Origin: Halorussus salinus
GTDB taxonomy: Archaea > Halobacteriota > Halobacteria > Halobacteriales > Haladaptataceae
NCBI RefSeq assembly: GCF_004765815.2
Contig: NZ_ML974127.1
Location: 598,927-662,926 of the forward strand
DNA length: 64,000 nt
Reading direction: 5' to 3'
This document shows, piece by piece, positions 3,129 to 19,997 of the stretch. Positions within the stretch are counted from its first letter, which is position 1, and each line of letters starts with the position of its first letter. The notes under the pieces were generated by a model that was not told the origin of the DNA, did not search any database, and saw nothing but the letters and a program-made list of their open reading frames with translations. The position numbers were made by a program, and so were the translations under genes.

Positions 3129-3512
3129 TCAGTGTTCTACGAACTCTATCAACACGCCGCCGGTCGATTTCGGATGGAGGAACGCGACATCGTGGCCCCA
3201 CGCGCCGGGCCGGGGTTCGTCGTCTATCAGTTCGACGCCGTGGTCGCGGGCGGTGTCGAGCGCCGCCTCGATGTCGTCGGTTTCGAGGGCGACGTGGTGG
3301 ATGCCCGGCCCGTTGCTGTCGAGGTATCGTGAGACGGTCCCGTCTTCGAGCGGTTCGAGCAACTCGAAGTAGCTGTCGCCGAATTCGAGGAAGACGACTC
3401 GGAGTCCGTCGAACTCCTCTTCGTGGGCGACCGGCGCGTCGAACAGGTCGGCGTACAGGTCCGCGAGGTCGGTGGCCTCCTCGGTCGCGATTCCAACGTG
3501 GTCGATGTACAT
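3129..3512 (-). CDS. mce: Methylmalonyl-CoA epimerase
   Basis: A 127-residue vicinal-oxygen-chelate protein that interconverts (R)- and (S)-methylmalonyl-CoA in propionyl-CoA metabolism. It has two VOC half-repeats. Expected metal ligands are visible: H5 in YIDHVGIA, E50 in YFELLEP, the HH pair at 72-73 (GIHHVALE) and a Glu near the C-terminus (LIEFVEH). Length and motifs match archaeal and bacterial epimerases. Its partner, the mutase large subunit, is in this window at 16351. A gene for an 18-residue peptide lies about 120 bp upstream on the same strand, so the two could share a transcript. Confidence 0.92.
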   Translation of the reverse strand: MYIDHVGIATEEATDLADLYADLFDAPVAHEEEFDGLRVVFLEFGDSYFELLEPLEDGTVSRYLDSNGPGIHHVALETDDIEAALDTARDHGVELIDDEPRPGAWGHDVAFLHPKSTGGVLIEFVEH

Positions 3513-3687: not shown

Positions 3688-3721
3688 GATTTTACCTCCA
3701 CACGCCCATTCACAACATTCA

Positions 3722-3731
3722 CTATTAAATC
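3722..3731 (-). promoter_or_regulatory. TATA-like element of the 3631-3687 peptide gene
   Basis: The complement reads GATTTAATAG. It is centred about 26 bp before the Shine-Dalgarno box, so the predicted transcript begins almost at GGAGGT. The surrounding 3700-3800 stretch is markedly AT-rich. Confidence 0.45.
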
Positions 3732-3814
3732 TAACTATAGAATGATTATTTTATTTATAAAAACATGTGAGTATTGTACTTATTATGTTTCGTATAGGTA
3801 GACCCGTTAGCTTC

Positions 3815-3843: not shown

Positions 3844-4530
3844 GTGCAAGCAGTCTTCTTCGACCTCGACGGCACGCTGGTCGCGCTCCCCGACGATTTC
3901 GGCGCGCTCTTCGAGGAGGCCCTGTCTTCCCACGGCGTCCGCGCCGACGCCGAGCGCCACGAGTACTTCACCGAGGCGTTCTTCGACCACTTGGGCGACT
4001 GCCGCGCCGACCCCTACCGCGCGGCGATGGCCGACCTCCGCGAGGAGTTCGCCCTCGGCCCGCCCGCCGAGCAGTTGGCCGAGAGCTACGCCGAGCGCGA
4101 GGCGGCCGCGACCGAACTCCGGCCGGGTGCCCGCGACGCTCTCGACGCGCTCGCGGGCGGCGAGCGTCCCGTCGCGCTCGGCGTGCTGACGAACGGCGGC
4201 GGGCGCGGACAGCGCCGGAAACTCGCGGTCCACGGACTCGCAGACTACTTCGAGGCAGTCGTCGTCTCGGCCGAGGTCGGCGCGGGCAAGCCCGACCCCG
4301 AAATCTTCGCGGCCGCGCGGGACGCGATTCCGGCCGACGAGTACGCCTTCGTCGCCGACGACCTCGACCGAGACGTGCGCCCCGCCCAACGCGCCGGGTT
4401 CACCGGCGTCTACGTCGGCGAGCGCGACGGAGACGGGAACGCGGACGGAGGGACTGCGAGCGCGGACGACCCGGTGCGCCCCGACCACCGCGTCGGGTCG
4501 CTCCGCGAGGTGCCCGCGCTGTTCGAGTAA
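3844..4530 (+). CDS. HAD-superfamily hydrolase (phosphatase-like)
   Basis: A 228-residue protein starting at GTG. Motif I is FFDLDGTLV with nucleophile D7 and D9. Motif II is the Thr in VLTNGGG, motif III the Lys in GAGKPDPEIF, and motif IV FVADDLDRD. The helical cap sits between motifs I and II, as in subfamily IA (phosphoglycolate phosphatase and haloacid dehalogenase type). The substrate is probably a small phosphorylated metabolite. Residues about 195-210 are a Gly/Asp/Ala-rich insert. The start is fixed by the TATA box 26 bp upstream; no later ATG would keep motif I. Confidence 0.85.
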   Translation: MQAVFFDLDGTLVALPDDFGALFEEALSSHGVRADAERHEYFTEAFFDHLGDCRADPYRAAMADLREEFALGPPAEQLAESYAEREAAATELRPGARDALDALAGGERPVALGVLTNGGGRGQRRKLAVHGLADYFEAVVVSAEVGAGKPDPEIFAAARDAIPADEYAFVADDLDRDVRPAQRAGFTGVYVGERDGDGNADGGTASADDPVRPDHRVGSLREVPALFE

Positions 4531-4551: not shown

Positions 4552-6693
4552 TTAGTTTCCGCCGCCGGTGCTGTTGCCGCCACCGGTACTGTTTCCGCCG
4601 TTACCGCCACCGTTGCCACTGCCACCGCTACCACCGTTGCCGCCGCCACCGCTACCACCGTTGCCGCCATCGCCCGTCTGGTGAATCTGCATCAGTTGGA
4701 CCGAGAGGTTCGCGGCTCCCGGACCGGGAATCTCGGGGACGAAGCCGCCGAACTTCGCGCTGTTGACCGGCCACGTCAGCTTGTCGTAGCCGATGACCAT
4801 GTACGGGAAGTCGAGGTAGATGCGCTCTATCGCCTTCCGCGCGATTCGGTTACGCTTCTCGGACTCCATGGTCGAGCGAGCGCGCGAGATGAGGTCGTCG
4901 GCCCCGGCGTCGCCGAGTCCGTAGCCCATCGCGTTGTTGAGTTGGGTCGTGGTGTTCTGCTGGTCGTACCCCTCCTTCTCGGAGTGGTCGTCGGCGTTGT
5001 CGCTGTGGAAAATGTTGTAGAGGGTCCCCGTCGCGAACGGCGAGAGGTCGCTCCACGCCATCGGGTAGATGTCGAAGTCCTCTTGGGCGTACACCCGGCC
5101 GAGCATCGTGTTGAACGTCATGACCTTCGTGACCGCCGGGATGCCGAGCTTCTGCATCATGTCCACCCACCGGGCCGCCATCTTGGACATCTTCGGCGTG
5201 TCCTTGGCGGGGTAGATGAGTACCTGCAGCGGGCCGCCCTTGATTTCGGGAATCGTCTTGCCGTTGACCCGAATCTCCTCTTGGACGCCCTGCTTCTGTC
5301 GGAGGACCTGCGACCGGACCGGCCCGAAGCTGTAGTCGTGTTTCCCCTTCGATTGGCCACCTGTGACGCCCGTCAGCGTGCCGGGGTACTGCTTGCCGAC
5401 GTAGTTGCCCGAGTCACCGTCGATGACTCGCCCCTCGGTGAGGAACGACTTGATGGCGTCGTAGTCGGGCACGCCCGGTTCCTTCTGGCGGAACTCGAAG
5501 GCGTTGGTCGCGGGCGATTCGAGGAGTTCCGCGTTCTCGACCGCCTGCTCGGGCCTGACCGCCGAGAAGCCCGGCGGCATCACGAAGTCGCCCATGTACT
5601 CGTAGCCCTCCTGCAGGCGTTCGGTCCAGTAGTAGTCGTCGAACACCATCGAGGTCGCTTGCCGGAACGTCGCGTCGTCCAACGGCTGGCGACGCATGTT
5701 GTACGCGAAGTAGTTGTACCCGGTGTCGTAGCCGGGCACCAGCTTCTGGCCCTGATTGCTCTTGACCTTCGAAATCTTCGAGACGTTGATGGAACTGTAG
5801 ACGCTGTCGATGCCTCCCCGAAGGAACGCCTGTTGGAGCGCCGAGTCGCTCCCGAATATCTTGAATCGAACCGCGTCGAGGAACGGTCCGCCGGACATGA
5901 GTTTGTCCACCTCGTCACGCCACCCGAGGTCGCCCAGCGGGTAGTCGTCGCGGAACTCGACCTCTATCGCGGTCGCTTCGGCGTACTTCGTGACCGTGCC
6001 CGGCCCAGTCCCGACCGGCCCGCCGTTCTGCGTCGGGGTGTACTGCTGATAGTTGTTCACGTCCGACCAGACGTGTTTCGGTAGGATGGGCACCGCGAGC
6101 TGACTGCTCGCGTAGGTCCCGATGGGCTTCTTGAGCTTCATGTGTACGTCCCAGTCGCCCTTCGAGGCCTTCTGGACCGATTTGATGGGCTGGATGGTCG
6201 CGGCGTAGCGCCCCGGCTCCTGCTCTTTCAGGTAGTTGTAGGTGAAAATCACGTCCTCGACGGTCAACTCCTCGCCGTCGGTCCACGTCACCCCCTCGCG
6301 AACGTCGAAGTACACGTCGGGCTGTGGGTTCGCCTTGCCGTCCGGGACTTCGACCGTCCAATCGGTGTAGAGGTTCGGCCGAACGCCGAACTCCACCGGG
6401 TCCACCACGGTCCCGGCGTCGTACACCATGTCCAGAATCGCCCACGAGTACGCCGACGACGTGGAGAGCGGATTCAGTCCCTTGGGCTGTTGGCCCATCC
6501 CCATCGTGAAGATGCCGCCGCTCTGTACGTCTTGGGCGGTCGCGTCGGTCGCTTGGACTACCGTCGCGGTCTCCTCGGTCGCTCCGTCCGCGGCGTCCGC
6601 CGCGCCGGGGAACGAGAGCGCCACCGCCCCTGCTCCGCTTGCTTGAAGAAACTTGCGCCGACCGGAATCGAACTCTGGGTTATCCTCACCCAT
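4552..6693 (-). CDS. Tat-exported ABC substrate-binding protein, family 5, with Gly-rich tail
   Basis: A 713-residue protein of the peptide/nickel-binding SBP_bac_5 family. GRRKFLQ at residues 11-17 is a twin-arginine motif followed by a hydrophobic stretch ending in ADAAD. There is no lipobox Cys. The body carries typical family features: QPKGLNPL near residue 70, then FDVREGVTWTDGEELTVEDV. The last 40 or so residues are a low-complexity tail of Gly, Asn and Ser (GGNGGSGG-type units ending NSTGGGN), unlike usual members. No permease or ATPase genes of this transporter type are adjacent, so it is an orphan here. The Gly/Asn tail may be a flexible spacer, but that is a guess. Confidence 0.85.
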   Translation of the reverse strand: MGEDNPEFDSGRRKFLQASGAGAVALSFPGAADAADGATEETATVVQATDATAQDVQSGGIFTMGMGQQPKGLNPLSTSSAYSWAILDMVYDAGTVVDPVEFGVRPNLYTDWTVEVPDGKANPQPDVYFDVREGVTWTDGEELTVEDVIFTYNYLKEQEPGRYAATIQPIKSVQKASKGDWDVHMKLKKPIGTYASSQLAVPILPKHVWSDVNNYQQYTPTQNGGPVGTGPGTVTKYAEATAIEVEFRDDYPLGDLGWRDEVDKLMSGGPFLDAVRFKIFGSDSALQQAFLRGGIDSVYSSINVSKISKVKSNQGQKLVPGYDTGYNYFAYNMRRQPLDDATFRQATSMVFDDYYWTERLQEGYEYMGDFVMPPGFSAVRPEQAVENAELLESPATNAFEFRQKEPGVPDYDAIKSFLTEGRVIDGDSGNYVGKQYPGTLTGVTGGQSKGKHDYSFGPVRSQVLRQKQGVQEEIRVNGKTIPEIKGGPLQVLIYPAKDTPKMSKMAARWVDMMQKLGIPAVTKVMTFNTMLGRVYAQEDFDIYPMAWSDLSPFATGTLYNIFHSDNADDHSEKEGYDQQNTTTQLNNAMGYGLGDAGADDLISRARSTMESEKRNRIARKAIERIYLDFPYMVIGYDKLTWPVNSAKFGGFVPEIPGPGAANLSVQLMQIHQTGDGGNGGSGGGGNGGSGGSGNGGGNGGNSTGGGNSTGGGN

Positions 6694-16119: not shown

Positions 16120-16320
16120 TATCCGTACAACTTTTGTGACGAGTTAGGGCGGCCGACAGTATTTCGAGCCGAACCGATTCACCGCCGACTCCTCCGATTC
16201 GTTCGACCGCGAACGGTTCGACCCCGGATACGCTCTCGGCGACGCGCGACGGTCCGCGTGACCCGCAGGGCCCGCGTGATTTCCCACGGTCTGCGTGACC
16301 CGCGACCGTTCCGACAAGTG
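16120..16320. other. Intergenic stretch without recognised gene
   Basis: Between the divergent sugar operon and mutase gene. Apart from a repeated CGCGTGA/TGCGTGACCCGC pattern near 16255-16310, I see no coding signal or RNA here. Confidence 0.4.
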
Positions 16321-16325
16321 TTAAG
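16321..16325 (+). promoter_or_regulatory. TATA box of the mutase gene, leaderless
   Basis: TTAAG is centred about 28 bp before the ATG at 16351. Confidence 0.5.
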
Positions 16326-16350
16326 ACCGCCCCGGCCGTCGATTCACACA

Positions 16351-18033
16351 ATGTTCGACGCCGACGACCTCGAGGAGATACGCGAGGCACGCGAGGAGTG
16401 GGACGAGGAGACGGTCGGTCCCACGGTCGAGCGGTTCGGCGAACGCAAAGACGAGTTCACGACCGACACGGGCGGCCAAGAGGTAGAGCGCATCTACACC
16501 CCCAACGACGTGGCGGGCTTGGACTACGACGAGGATTTGGGGTTCCCCGGCGAGGAGCCCTACACCCGTGGTCCGTACTCCACCATGCACCGCGGGCGGC
16601 TCTGGACGATGCGCCAGTACGCCGGGTTCGGCACGCCCGAAGAGACCAACGAGCGGTTCCACTATCTCATCGAGAACGGCTCCTCGGGCCTCTCGATGGC
16701 GTTCGACCTGCCGACCCAGATGGGCTACGACTCCGACGCCGACATGGCCGCGGGCGAGGTCGGCAAGTCGGGCGTCGCCATCGACTCGCTGCACGACATG
16801 GAGACCGTCTTCGACGGCATCCCGCTGGACGAGGTGTCCACGTCGATGACCATCAACGCGCCCGCCTCGGTCCTGCTGGCGATGTACGTCGCGGTCGGCG
16901 ACAAGCAGGGCGTCGATAGGGAGGAGCTTCGGGGAACCATCCAGAACGACCTGCTGAAGGAGTACATCGCGCGCAACACCTACATCTACCCGCCCGAACC
17001 GTCGATGCGCATCATCACCGATATCTTCGAGTTCTGCGCCGACGAGACGCCGAAATTCAACACCATCTCCATCTCGGGCTATCACGTCCGCGAGGCGGGC
17101 GCGACCGCGGCACAGGAACTGGCGTTCACGCTCGGTAACGGCATCGAGTACGTCGAGGCCGCGATGGACGCCGGACTCGACGTGGACGACTTCGCGCCCC
17201 AACTTTCCTTTTTCTTCAACGCTCACAACAACATTCTGGAGGAGGTCGCCAAGTTCCGCGCCGCGCGCCGGATGTGGGCCCAAATCATGGACGAGCGATT
17301 CGGTGCCGAGAACCCCAAATCGAAGCAGTTGAAGTTCCACACCCAGACCGCCGGTTCGACCCTGACCGCCCAGCAGGTGGACAACAACATCGTCCGCGTG
17401 GCGTATCAGGCGCTCGCGGCCGTCCTCGGGGGAACTCAGAGCCTCCACACCAACGGGAAGGACGAGGCGCTCGCGCTCCCGACCGAGGAGAGCGTCCGGA
17501 CCGCCCTCCGGACTCAGCAGATTCTGGCCCACGAGTCGGGTGCCGCGGACACCATCGACCCGCTGGCGGGAAGCTACTACGTCGAGAGTCTGACCGACGG
17601 CGTCGAGGAGGACGCCTTCGACATTCTCGACACGGTAGACGAGAAGGGCGGGATGTTGCAGGCCATCGAGGACCAGTGGGTCCAACGCCAGATTCAGGAC
17701 GTGGCCTACGAGCGCCAGCGCGAAATCGAGGAGAAAGAGCGCGTCATCGTCGGCGTCAACGAGTTCGAGGTGGACGAGGAGCCCGAGGTGGACATCCAAG
17801 AAGTCACCGAGGAGGACGAACAGCGCCAGATAGACCACCTGAACGCCGTCAAGGACGACCGCGACGACGAGGCGGTCGAGGCGAAACTCGACGCGCTCCG
17901 CGAGGCCGCCGAGGGCGACGACAACCTGATGCCCTATATCGTGGACGCGGTGAAAGCCTACGCGACGGTCGGCGAAATCTGCGGCGTGATGCGCGACGTG
18001 TTCGGCGAGTACCGGCCCGGCGCGGCGGTGTAG
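16351..18033 (+). CDS. mcmA: Methylmalonyl-CoA mutase, large (catalytic) subunit
   Basis: A 560-residue protein holding only the TIM-barrel catalytic part of B12-dependent mutases. Recognisable segments are [14 protein letters not shown] near residue 120, the substrate-pocket region [20 protein letters not shown] and [16 protein letters not shown]. The cobalamin-binding domain (DxHxxG) is absent, as in archaea where it is a separate small subunit, which is not in this window. It rearranges (R)-methylmalonyl-CoA to succinyl-CoA. The epimerase that supplies the R form is encoded at 3129-3512. A peptide gene follows on the same strand 105 bp after the stop. Confidence 0.95.
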
Positions 18034-18094
18034 TCCCGCTTCCCCGACGGCTCCGCTCGCTTGAGCGCTACTAAATGCGACAAGCTAGCCATTG

Positions 18095-18107
18095 ATATTA
18101 TATTTAT
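18095..18107 (+). promoter_or_regulatory. TATA-like element of the 18139 peptide gene
   Basis: ATATTATATTTAT in an AT-rich island after the GC-rich mutase gene. It places the transcription start close to the Shine-Dalgarno box at 18127-18134. Confidence 0.5.
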
Positions 18108-18138
18108 CCGCCTCGAAATTTCCTGCGGAGGTGAGACC

Positions 18139-18195
18139 ATGTTTGGATTCAATCCGCTCCACGTCTGTGATCCGTACATCGACAACGGTTGTTAG
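18139..18195 (+). CDS. 18-residue Cys peptide MFGFNPLHVCDPYIDNGC with consensus SD
   Basis: ATG, 17 further codons and TAG. GGAGGTGA at 18127-18134, four bases before the ATG, is a full match to the anti-Shine-Dalgarno end of archaeal 16S rRNA. An AT-rich TATA element is upstream. The peptide has Cys at 10 and at the C-terminal position 18, and Pro at 6 and 12. Compared with the peptide at 18710 it shares M1, F2, P6, V9, P12 and C18. It is followed 75 bp later by a remnant of a class V aminotransferase gene on the other strand. Function unknown; a leader, signalling or modified peptide are all possible. Confidence 0.6.
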   Translation: MFGFNPLHVCDPYIDNGC

Positions 18196-18270
18196 CGCTA
18201 GCAGTCCGCCGCTGGCCAGCAGTCTGGTATCGCTCGCAAACGACCGGTTTTTGTAGGGGTTCGGCTCGAC

Positions 18271-18366
18271 TCAGAGTCACGCGACCAGTTCGTCCCCGTC
18301 CTCGGCGGTGGTAAAGACGTGGATTGACGCCGGAACCGCGTTCTCCGAGGAGAGCGACCGATTGCC
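18271..18366 (-). pseudogene. C-terminal remnant of a class V aminotransferase gene
   Basis: The complement translates to RSLSSENAVPASIHVF followed by TTAEDGDELVA and a premature stop. It matches the end of the intact aminotransferase at 18849 (RSLPFPENAVRASVHVF, NTAEDVDELVGWL). Over the 75 bases from the original stop codon inward, 66 are identical. One codon is missing and a new TGA lies three codons before the old stop. No more of the gene is recognisable, so this is a decayed partial duplicate. A peptide gene precedes both the remnant and the intact copy at similar distance. Confidence 0.8.
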
Positions 18367-18369
18367 GAC

Positions 18370-18655
18370 CGAAGGTCCGCGTCTCGAACGCGGACTCGAC
18401 CTGTCCCCAGAGGCACCGAGTGAACTCGGGGTTGTTGGCCATTACCGTCCGGAAAATCTAACTGACTATCGACGCGCGGACGGTCGCCCGAATATCTCCG
18501 TAGACGCCTCGCTGTCGCCCGGCCGCCTCGCTCTCGTACCGCTGTTTATCGGTGTTCACGAGAAGCCAGCGACGAGCAAGCCCATCGGGTTCCCGGCTTT
18601 GGCCTTCTGGGAAACGTGAGAACTGAATAGCGGATTCTACCCCAATGTAAAATAC
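18370..18655. other. Intergenic stretch without recognised gene
   Basis: Between the aminotransferase remnant and the second peptide promoter. Open frames exist on both strands, but none has a ribosome-binding site, a TATA box or a family I recognise. It may be further decayed sequence. Confidence 0.4.
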
Positions 18656-18661
18656 TCTAGA

Positions 18662-18672
18662 AAAATTATTAA
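18662..18672 (+). promoter_or_regulatory. TATA-like element of the 18710 peptide gene
   Basis: AAAATTATTAATT stretch, about 26-30 bp before the Shine-Dalgarno box at 18695-18704. A small inverted repeat AGACT-CTGT-AGTCT lies between them at 18678-18691. Confidence 0.5.
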
Positions 18673-18709
18673 TTCAAAGACTCTGTAGTCTAGCAAGGAG
18701 GTGACAAAG

Positions 18710-18766
18710 ATGTTCTTCCTGTTCCCGACCGAGGTCAAGTGTCCGCCGTCCTACGTCACTTGTTGA
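18710..18766 (+). CDS. 18-residue Cys peptide MFFLFPTEVKCPPSYVTC with consensus SD
   Basis: ATG, 17 further codons and TGA. AAGGAGGTGA at 18695-18704 is five bases before the ATG. Cys at 11 and at the C-terminal position 18, Pro at 6, 12 and 13. Length, Shine-Dalgarno strength, promoter spacing and C-terminal Cys repeat those of the 18139 gene. At the DNA level only 27 of 57 positions agree with that gene, far less than the 88 percent between the neighbouring aminotransferase end and its remnant. It is convergent with the intact aminotransferase, 82 bp away. Function unknown. Confidence 0.6.
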   Translation: MFFLFPTEVKCPPSYVTC

Positions 18767-18848
18767 AACGACCCGACTCAGTCGTATCGCCCGCCAATCG
18801 CCTTTTGCGGTCGCCGGAACCTGCGCGAACGTCCGTAGCGACTCGTCC

Positions 18849-19997
18849 TCAGAGCCACCCGACCAGTTCGTCCACGTCCTCGGCGGTGTTGAAGACGTGG
18901 ACCGACGCCCGGACCGCGTTCTCGGGGAACGGGAGCGACCGAATCCGGACGTTATCGTCGGCTAACTCCTCGACGAACGCCTCGGGGTCGGGGTCCGCGA
19001 CTGCGAAGGTGACGAGACCCGACTCGTACTCGCGGGGACTCAGCAGTCGCGCGGTCTCGGAGTCTTCGATGCCCTCCTTGAGTCGGTCGGTCAGTTCCTC
19101 GATTCGCCCCTGAATCGTCTCGTAGCCCACGCTCTCGATGGTCTCGATGGCCTCCGCGAGTCCGGCGTACGGCGCGGGCGAGACCGTGCCGACTTCGAGG
19201 CGGTGGGCACCGGGTTCGTAGGCGTACTCCTCGGCGTTGGGGTCCTCGACGCTCCGATAGCCGACGTGGGCCGGTTCGAGGGCCTCCTCCGCGCCGGGGC
19301 TGACGTGGACGAACCCCGCGCCGAACGGTCCCAGCAACCACTTGTGGCCCGCGCCAGCCACGAAGTCCGCACCCCACTCGCGGAGGTCCACCGGCATCTG
19401 GCCGGGGCACTGCACGGCGTCCACGAGGAGGCGCGCGTCGGCGTCGCGGGCCAGTTCGGCGACCGTCGAGACCGGTAGGTGCGTGCCGTGGCTCCACGTC
19501 AGCGAACTCAGGCAGACGAGTTTCGCGTCCCGCACCGCCGACTTCATGGCGTCCATATCGAGGCGGCCCTCCTCGGTCTCGACTACCTCGACCTCGACGC
19601 CGTGACGCTTCAGGCGCTTCCACGGCAGGATGCCCGACGAGTGTTCGAGGTCGGTCCGGACCACGGTGTCGCCCGGTTCCCAGTCGAAGGAGGCCGCGAT
19701 GCGGTTGATGCCGTCGGTCGTACTCTGTGTCAGCGCGATTTCGTCACTGTCCACGCCGAAGTGGTCCGCGACGGTCTCGCGCGTCTCGTCGAACACGTCG
19801 AACGCGCAGGGGTACATGCCCTCCTCGCCCGGCGCGTCGTACTCGTGGCGCTCGACGCAGGACTCGACGGCCTCCACGACGTTCGTCGGACTCGGCCCCG
19901 CCGCGCCGGTGTTCATGTACGTCGTCCCGTCCAACGCTGGCATCGCAGCCCTGAGTTCGGTGGGAGTCACGGCTTCCCTCACGGCCGACAGCCGCAT
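18849..19997 (-). CDS. Class V aminotransferase, cysteine-desulfurase-like
   Basis: A 382-residue PLP enzyme. YMNTGAAGPSPTNVVEA near residue 27 is the N-terminal phosphate-side segment, ALTQSTTDGINRI is the cofactor loop, and AGAGHKWLLGPFG contains the Lys that binds PLP. The DAVQCPGQMPVD segment contains the Asp that contacts the pyridine ring. It could be a desulfurase, a selenocysteine lyase or an isopenicillin-N-epimerase-like enzyme; the fold does not decide. A TATA-like sequence around 20019-20024 (complement) is about 24 bp before the ATG at 19997. A decayed partial copy of its C-terminus is at 18271. Confidence 0.88.
   Translation of the reverse strand: MRLSAVREAVTPTELRAAMPALDGTTYMNTGAAGPSPTNVVEAVESCVERHEYDAPGEEGMYPCAFDVFDETRETVADHFGVDSDEIALTQSTTDGINRIAASFDWEPGDTVVRTDLEHSSGILPWKRLKRHGVEVEVVETEEGRLDMDAMKSAVRDAKLVCLSSLTWSHGTHLPVSTVAELARDADARLLVDAVQCPGQMPVDLREWGADFVAGAGHKWLLGPFGAGFVHVSPGAEEALEPAHVGYRSVEDPNAEEYAYEPGAHRLEVGTVSPAPYAGLAEAIETIESVGYETIQGRIEELTDRLKEGIEDSETARLLSPREYESGLVTFAVADPDPEAFVEELADDNVRIRSLPFPENAVRASVHVFNTAEDVDELVGWL

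Follow-up and report, generated by a model that had tools for sequence, protein, structure and literature searches.

Bacterial attenuation leader peptides are encoded by tiny frames that lie in intergenic regions behind strong Shine-Dalgarno (SD) sequences. In haloarchaea, very small cysteine-containing proteins have been described, namely the C(P)XCG zinc-finger mu-proteins of Haloferax volcanii and Brz of Halobacterium, which have <70 amino acids (aa) and two C(P)XCG motifs (PMC10716476, PMC11241148, PMC2253796). Archaeal RiPPs, comprising lanthipeptides and YcaO-related haloazolisins, have been described from biosynthetic gene clusters (PMC12144867, PMC9953058), and LanM is more abundant in Halorussus than in any other archaeal genus (PMC12144867). 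The sod gene of H. volcanii has a short 5′ leader with an extensive SD, and replacing that SD did not reduce translation (PMC3986360).

Here, we examined tiny genes in a 64,000-nt stretch of the Halorussus salinus genome (hereafter, the window) that partly resemble each of these systems. Their products share a very small size, the presence of Cys, and a haloarchaeal origin with the C(P)XCG proteins and Brz, but they are 14–29 aa long, lack such a motif pair, usually contain two Cys at a spacing of 1–11, and are hydrophobic with low charge. Like archaeal RiPP precursors, they are short and ribosomal; in contrast to those precursors, no enzyme gene was seen near their genes, the N-terminal part spans only ~8 residues, and 12 of 68 peptides are free of Ser and Thr. 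The tiny frame, strong SD, and intergenic location are common to bacterial leader peptides, whereas the Halorussus genes have their own promoters, no conserved downstream target or orientation, and no attenuator structure, and the peptide sequence itself is conserved. Finally, the genes resemble sod in their short leader and extensive SD. The SD is dispensable in sod, however, whereas the Halorussus family retains the consensus in 58 of 69 loci, making it a direct test case.

Three tiny genes and their promoter-SD cassettes

A preliminary description of the window had reported three tiny frames, and all three were found as described, from coordinates and strand to SD and ATG. The features are as follows:

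18097..18106, + strand, gene 1 TATA element ATTATATTTA, in the register common to 42 aligned members
18127..18134, + strand, gene 1 SD GGAGGTGA, consensus
18139..18195, + strand, gene 1, product MFGFNPLHVCDPYIDNGC, SD 4 nt before ATG
18222..18252, + strand, gene 1 3′ motif GGTATCGCTCGCAAAC and T-run, from the Gibbs motif search
18660..18674, + strand, gene 2 TATA element GAAAAATTATTAATT, in the family register
18697..18704, + strand, gene 2 SD GGAGGTGA, consensus
18710..18766, + strand, gene 2, product MFFLFPTEVKCPPSYVTC, SD 5 nt before ATG
18779..18806, + strand, gene 2 3′ motif CAGTCGTATCGCCCGCCAATC and T-run, from the Gibbs motif search
3723..3732, − strand, gene 3 TATA element AGATTTAATA, in the family register
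3692..3699, − strand, gene 3 SD GGAGGTAA
3631..3687, − strand, gene 3, product MINISLFDNTWCPHCRRL, SD 4 nt before ATG

Genes 1 and 2 indeed have residues M1, F2, P6, V9, P12, and C18 in common. Each of the three genes also has exactly 18 codons, as had been pointed out, but this is not a trait of the wider family, and the match in length is a coincidence. Genes 1 and 2 are flanked by the gene for the methylmalonyl-CoA mutase large subunit (16258–18033), with gene 1 downstream of it, and by a convergent class-V aminotransferase gene (18849–19997). Gene 3 lies between a Glyoxalase_4 gene (3129–3512), whose product is probably methylmalonyl-CoA epimerase, and a HAD hydrolase gene (3844–4530). Between genes 1 and 2, a stretch at 18280–18620 is similar, from 18280, to the 3′ end of the aminotransferase gene (from 18850) and is perhaps a duplication relic; a 103-aa ORF (18308–18619, + strand) overlaps this stretch.

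Aligning the family revealed a fixed promoter register, in which an A-rich stretch is followed by a T-rich peak 28–30 nt ahead of the SD. At the spacing that is usual between an archaeal TATA element and its start site, transcription would begin at the SD or immediately upstream of it, leaving a predicted leader that is essentially the SD itself. This agrees with the earlier suggestion that the TATA element is positioned for a start beside the SD. Across the collection, 58 of the 69 loci have an exact GGAGGTGA and 64 have GGAGG, compared with an SD-like motif in only 12 of 248 larger neighboring genes. This conservation stands out because H. volcanii has been reported to make no use of the SD. 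That the SD has been kept through many duplications and speciations argues that it matters for at least some haloarchaeal genes, and the peptide genes make a good reporter set for SD use in haloarchaea. Any common operator in the TATA-SD interval was at most marginal (4.5–4.6 bits vs 4.1–4.25 in shuffles).

Downstream, about one-third of members carry the motif AGTCGWATCG (CAGTCGWATCGNCC), typically 10–12 nt past the stop codon and often followed by a T-run; the motif could be a terminator. Its information content in the Gibbs motif search was 8.6 bits, against 6.5–6.8 in shuffles. Of its 31 matches of ≥13 bits, 12 fell within the 0.5% of bases just past stops, an enrichment inflated by training bias. 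The 3′ pattern of gene 2, allowing two mismatches, independently led to another member, MAFEISVVPFCTCEEFPTLEC.

Size, distribution, and conservation of the peptide family

SD-pattern searches of the genome and its congeners placed the three genes in a large family; in the whole genome, GGAGGTGA-N(2-6)-ATG-DT gave 17 matches, compared with 0 for the reversed pattern. We also built a sequence-only model (R1) of promoter, SD, and codons 1–6 from a TATA-to-codon-6 alignment of 42 members; this model ends before the Cys region. In the window, R1 gave significant matches to genes 1–3 alone (E-values of 7e-9, 8e-8, and 2e-6), these genes having belonged to its training set, and the next match had an E-value of 0.56. 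R1 was then run on 28 genomes of the same taxonomic family, where it retrieved the known members along with many new ones. Of the 20 highest-ranking loci that had not been used for training, 17 have frames of 14–29 aa with at least two Cys, a criterion that random in-frame sequence is roughly estimated to satisfy in ~10% of frames. As the Cys region lies outside R1, these loci provide independent validation; the initial member list had been picked by eye for Cys frames, and the R1 matches are an unbiased check.

The resulting collection comprises 69 loci encoding 68 distinct peptides, each with at least two Cys, in 12 of the 28 genomes. The H. salinus genome (G000) accounts for 17 of these loci, of which the pair formed by genes 1 and 2 is only the most visible part. 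The remainder are from ten other Halorussus genomes and from G020, a sister genus in the same taxonomic family, with 12 loci in G005, 10 in G009, 7 in G011 (a genome 62% complete), 6 in G014, 4 in G003, 3 each in G015 and G002, 2 each in G001, G006, and G020, and 1 in G013, all of these counts being lower bounds. The inventory rests on SD-like sequence and misses members without it. In G002 (L251 and L265), three acidic peptides of 25 aa are nearly identical, end in FIPCICFVDE, and share the promoter-SD arrangement, two of them being encoded in tandem; together with one G006 peptide, they are longer and acidic and may be a distinct class.

The distribution is patchy within Halorussus, and several Halorussus species and most sampled haloarchaea have no members; G008 and G010 are congeners free of the peptides. 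Pattern and model searches of 392 genomes of the order, the latter with stricter filters, yielded no convincing member outside the taxonomic family among the matches listed; those examined were all either ordinary genes with an SD or isolated frames of a doubtful kind. An MFG-type pattern in GTDB genomes returned Halorussus members and unrelated-looking frames. Ten representatives had no match in Pfam or NCBIfam and one peptide had none in PDB, in each case up to E = 10 and with very short queries being insensitive, and no open-access literature was found on Halorussus small proteins or haloarchaeal Cys-bearing RiPP precursors. Collectively, the sequence data indicate a large, lineage-specific, and previously undescribed family of Cys-rich peptides of 14–29 residues. 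The preliminary proposal of real peptide genes equipped with a promoter-SD cassette, matching no described family, is supported. So short a family easily escapes annotation, and a Cys-rich class with 17 members in a single archaeal genome could stay unseen.

The peptides follow the pattern M-Phi-x-Phi-x-(P)-Phi-x(2-3)-C-x(4-10)-C, with the final Cys near the C-terminus. Hydrophobic residues occupy position 2 in 88%, position 4 in 81%, and position 7 in 63% of peptides, and Pro occupies position 6 in 35%. The first Cys falls at positions 9–11 in 47 of 68 peptides, and in 56 the last Cys lies no more than three residues from the end. Most have exactly two Cys, the spacing of which ranges from 1 to 11 in two-Cys members, is mostly 4–10, and peaks at 4–6; CxC and CxxC motifs occur among the peptides with three or four Cys, for example in CICNNGVCYC and CKNCTSFCFC. 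Overall, Cys makes up 11.5% of residues (0.7% in neighboring proteins), aromatic residues 15% (vs 7%), and Asp plus Glu 10.5% (vs 18%).

We next consider conservation of frame and SD among relatives, on which the preliminary description had let its case depend, and which was found. Over 21 pairwise comparisons in eleven subfamilies, pS was 0.47 and pN 0.17 (ratio 0.36; pairs are non-independent), and the same pairs differed 91, 47, and 139 times at codon positions 1, 2, and 3, respectively. These substitution patterns indicate that the frames are coding and under purifying selection. Chance pairing of an SD with a tiny ORF, which had been judged improbable from the outset, is ruled out by this analysis together with the reversed-pattern control, the R1 E-values, and the high share of Cys-bearing frames among the best loci not used for training (17 of 20).

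Across six species, the intergenic DNA at the mutase site is largely unalignable apart from gene islands. Orthologues of gene 1 are present there in G003 (MFGFFPLQVCDGRIDNGC), G006 (MFVFNPLIVCDKWNDGC), and G001 (MFTIIPLHYCDADPRC), and an orthologue of gene 2 is present in G014 (MFFLFPAENMCKPYRVEC), within a 120-nt island of 75% identity amid unalignable intergenic DNA. Relics of gene 1 also persist: in G005 (L097 ~5030–5090), ATG has become ACG and the SD is weakened while the frame is otherwise preserved and retains both Cys, and in G014 (L070 ~3965–4020), ACG replaces ATG and the promoter is missing. Beside the Glyoxalase_4 gene, the gene 3 site holds diverged family members in G003, G005, G011, and G014, and other equivalent sites hold clearly related or strongly diverged peptides as well as tandem pairs. 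Such related, diverged, and tandem copies, together with the relics, point to birth-and-death evolution of the family.

Candidate functions of the peptides

Members are stand-alone single genes beside unrelated housekeeping genes. Besides those named above, neighbors include genes for aconitase, TCP-1 chaperonin, PurA, PurB, HisA, proline dehydrogenase, and Orc1/Cdc6, among others, and no neighboring enzyme recurs apart from the synteny of orthologous sites. No modification, export, or immunity gene adjoined the genes checked, and no LANC-like domain was found in the adjacent genes scanned.

We tentatively favor a reading in which these are diversifying bioactive micro-peptides whose N-terminal strand docks a trans-acting partner and whose C-terminal Cys pair is closed or modified. 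Each gene has a TATA promoter in fixed register and, at the 5′ end predicted for its mRNA, a consensus SD, and would be strongly expressed. The product would act as a peptide, neither as an RNA nor as a regulatory leader, because the codons are conserved, the transcript is unstructured, and neither Rfam nor neighbor geometry supports an RNA or leader role. Conservation of the N-terminal strand next to a variable two-Cys part suggests docking on a common partner and a closed or modified Cys segment: the alternating-hydrophobic N-terminus (M-Phi-x-Phi-x-P-Phi) would be the docking strand for a protein supplied in trans, and function would reside in the two-Cys segment, which a disulfide or an enzymatic modification would close. 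The outcome may be diversified small bioactive peptides, signals or antagonists, made with RiPP-like logic from dispersed genes. Low charge, the aromatic/Pro/Gly/Cys composition, diversification, and patchiness would fit signals or antagonists better than housekeeping. Against bioactive peptides stand the absence of an adjoining modification, export, or immunity gene, the sparseness of SPASM and PqqD, and an N-terminal segment that is short for a leader peptide.

The high Cys content, never fewer than two per peptide, could instead reflect intracellular thiol or metal ligands, small peptides expressed at a high level with Cys pairs for thiol redox balance or for the binding or buffering of soft metals (Cu, Zn, Fe-S). 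The CxC and CxxC motifs of members with three or four Cys, and CPHC in gene 3, keep this idea alive; however, the broad spacing in two-Cys members is unlike a fixed metal site, and a buffer leaves both the alternating-hydrophobic N-terminus and the sequence diversification unexplained, so we regard such a role as somewhat unlikely. The strong conservation of hydrophobic positions 2, 4, and 7 across unrelated subfamilies would also suit intracellular adaptor or inhibitor peptides, the N-terminal strand joining the edge of a host protein and a Cys loop stabilizing it, and no signal peptide is visible and no export genes are among the neighbors. Yet the family is missing from most sampled haloarchaea and several Halorussus species, and its partner is therefore unlikely to serve an essential core function; we consider adaptors or inhibitors unlikely.

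A conserved N-terminal motif with a variable Cys segment, in a genus rich in LanM (PMC12144867), is also what would be expected of the precursors for one of the known RiPP classes (sactipeptide/ranthipeptide, lanthipeptide, or azole), made in trans. Twelve of the 68 peptides, including gene 1 and its G003 and G006 orthologues, lack Ser and Thr, however, which excludes lanthionine in those. For SPASM, only 5 of the 28 genomes had a match, with none in the peptide-rich G005, G009, and G014, and PqqD gave one weak match among the 28, in G002 only, although divergent RREs would escape this search; a SPASM or PqqD maturase common to carriers was rejected on this basis. We judge a known class to be quite improbable. 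Least probable, and in our estimate very unlikely, are leader peptides or dual-function RNAs, in which translation of the frame regulates a neighboring gene or the RNA is the functional product. The 3′ motif common to about one-third of members would suit them, as would gene 3, which is upstream of the epimerase-like gene on the same strand. Gene 2, however, faces a convergent gene, an arrangement seen for several members; orientation to the next gene is mixed, neighbors are unrelated, the genes have their own promoters, and the peptide is under selection. The leader-peptide option raised in the preliminary description was consequently rejected, an attenuator also being opposed by the mean MFE z of 0.17. 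The same absence of a fold signal, together with no Rfam match up to E = 1 (window 17900–18950), led us to reject a structured RNA.

A mobile or viral origin was also rejected: plasmids had no match, phage tblastn had none, and viral scans returned, apart from one further stretch, unrelated-looking frames. Seven viral contigs (L165, L175, L179, L183, L185, L188, and L189) encode MFGFLTFGASFWECFWFG(K/R)C(K/R) in a frame that is 21 aa long and preceded by a consensus SD; this frame is probably unrelated to the archaeal family.

Returning to the diversifying bioactive micro-peptides, points in their favor include the LanM richness of Halorussus and loci at which short peptides occur with SagB-like genes. 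The promoter model also picked out MTNNTDDAMEAVTEEVSDDDLFVAEPYVQS and MSDETAEAWEMNEIESEKRACTLTCDPTN, two short peptides encoded at L293 ~5414–5510 (G002; with L293:5630–7788) and in L295 (G006:C1:1573000–1583000), and their loci have paired SagB-like peptide dehydrogenases. The loci share the promoter-SD style of the family and may be RiPP loci of Halorussus. We propose, with reservation, that the family may represent a new archaeal peptide system: a dispersed, fast-diversifying repertoire of two-Cys peptides of 14–29 residues, expressed from uniform promoter-SD cassettes and served by a partner or maturase in trans, acting as signals or antagonists in an archaeal group considered not to depend on the SD. 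If bioactive, the peptides would provide a new route of archaeal chemical interaction that is independent of gene clusters. In addition, a radical SAM/SPASM gene (L294:7192–8379, G000:C6) lies next to a 104-aa unmatched ORF, on a contig that also bears several of the peptides.
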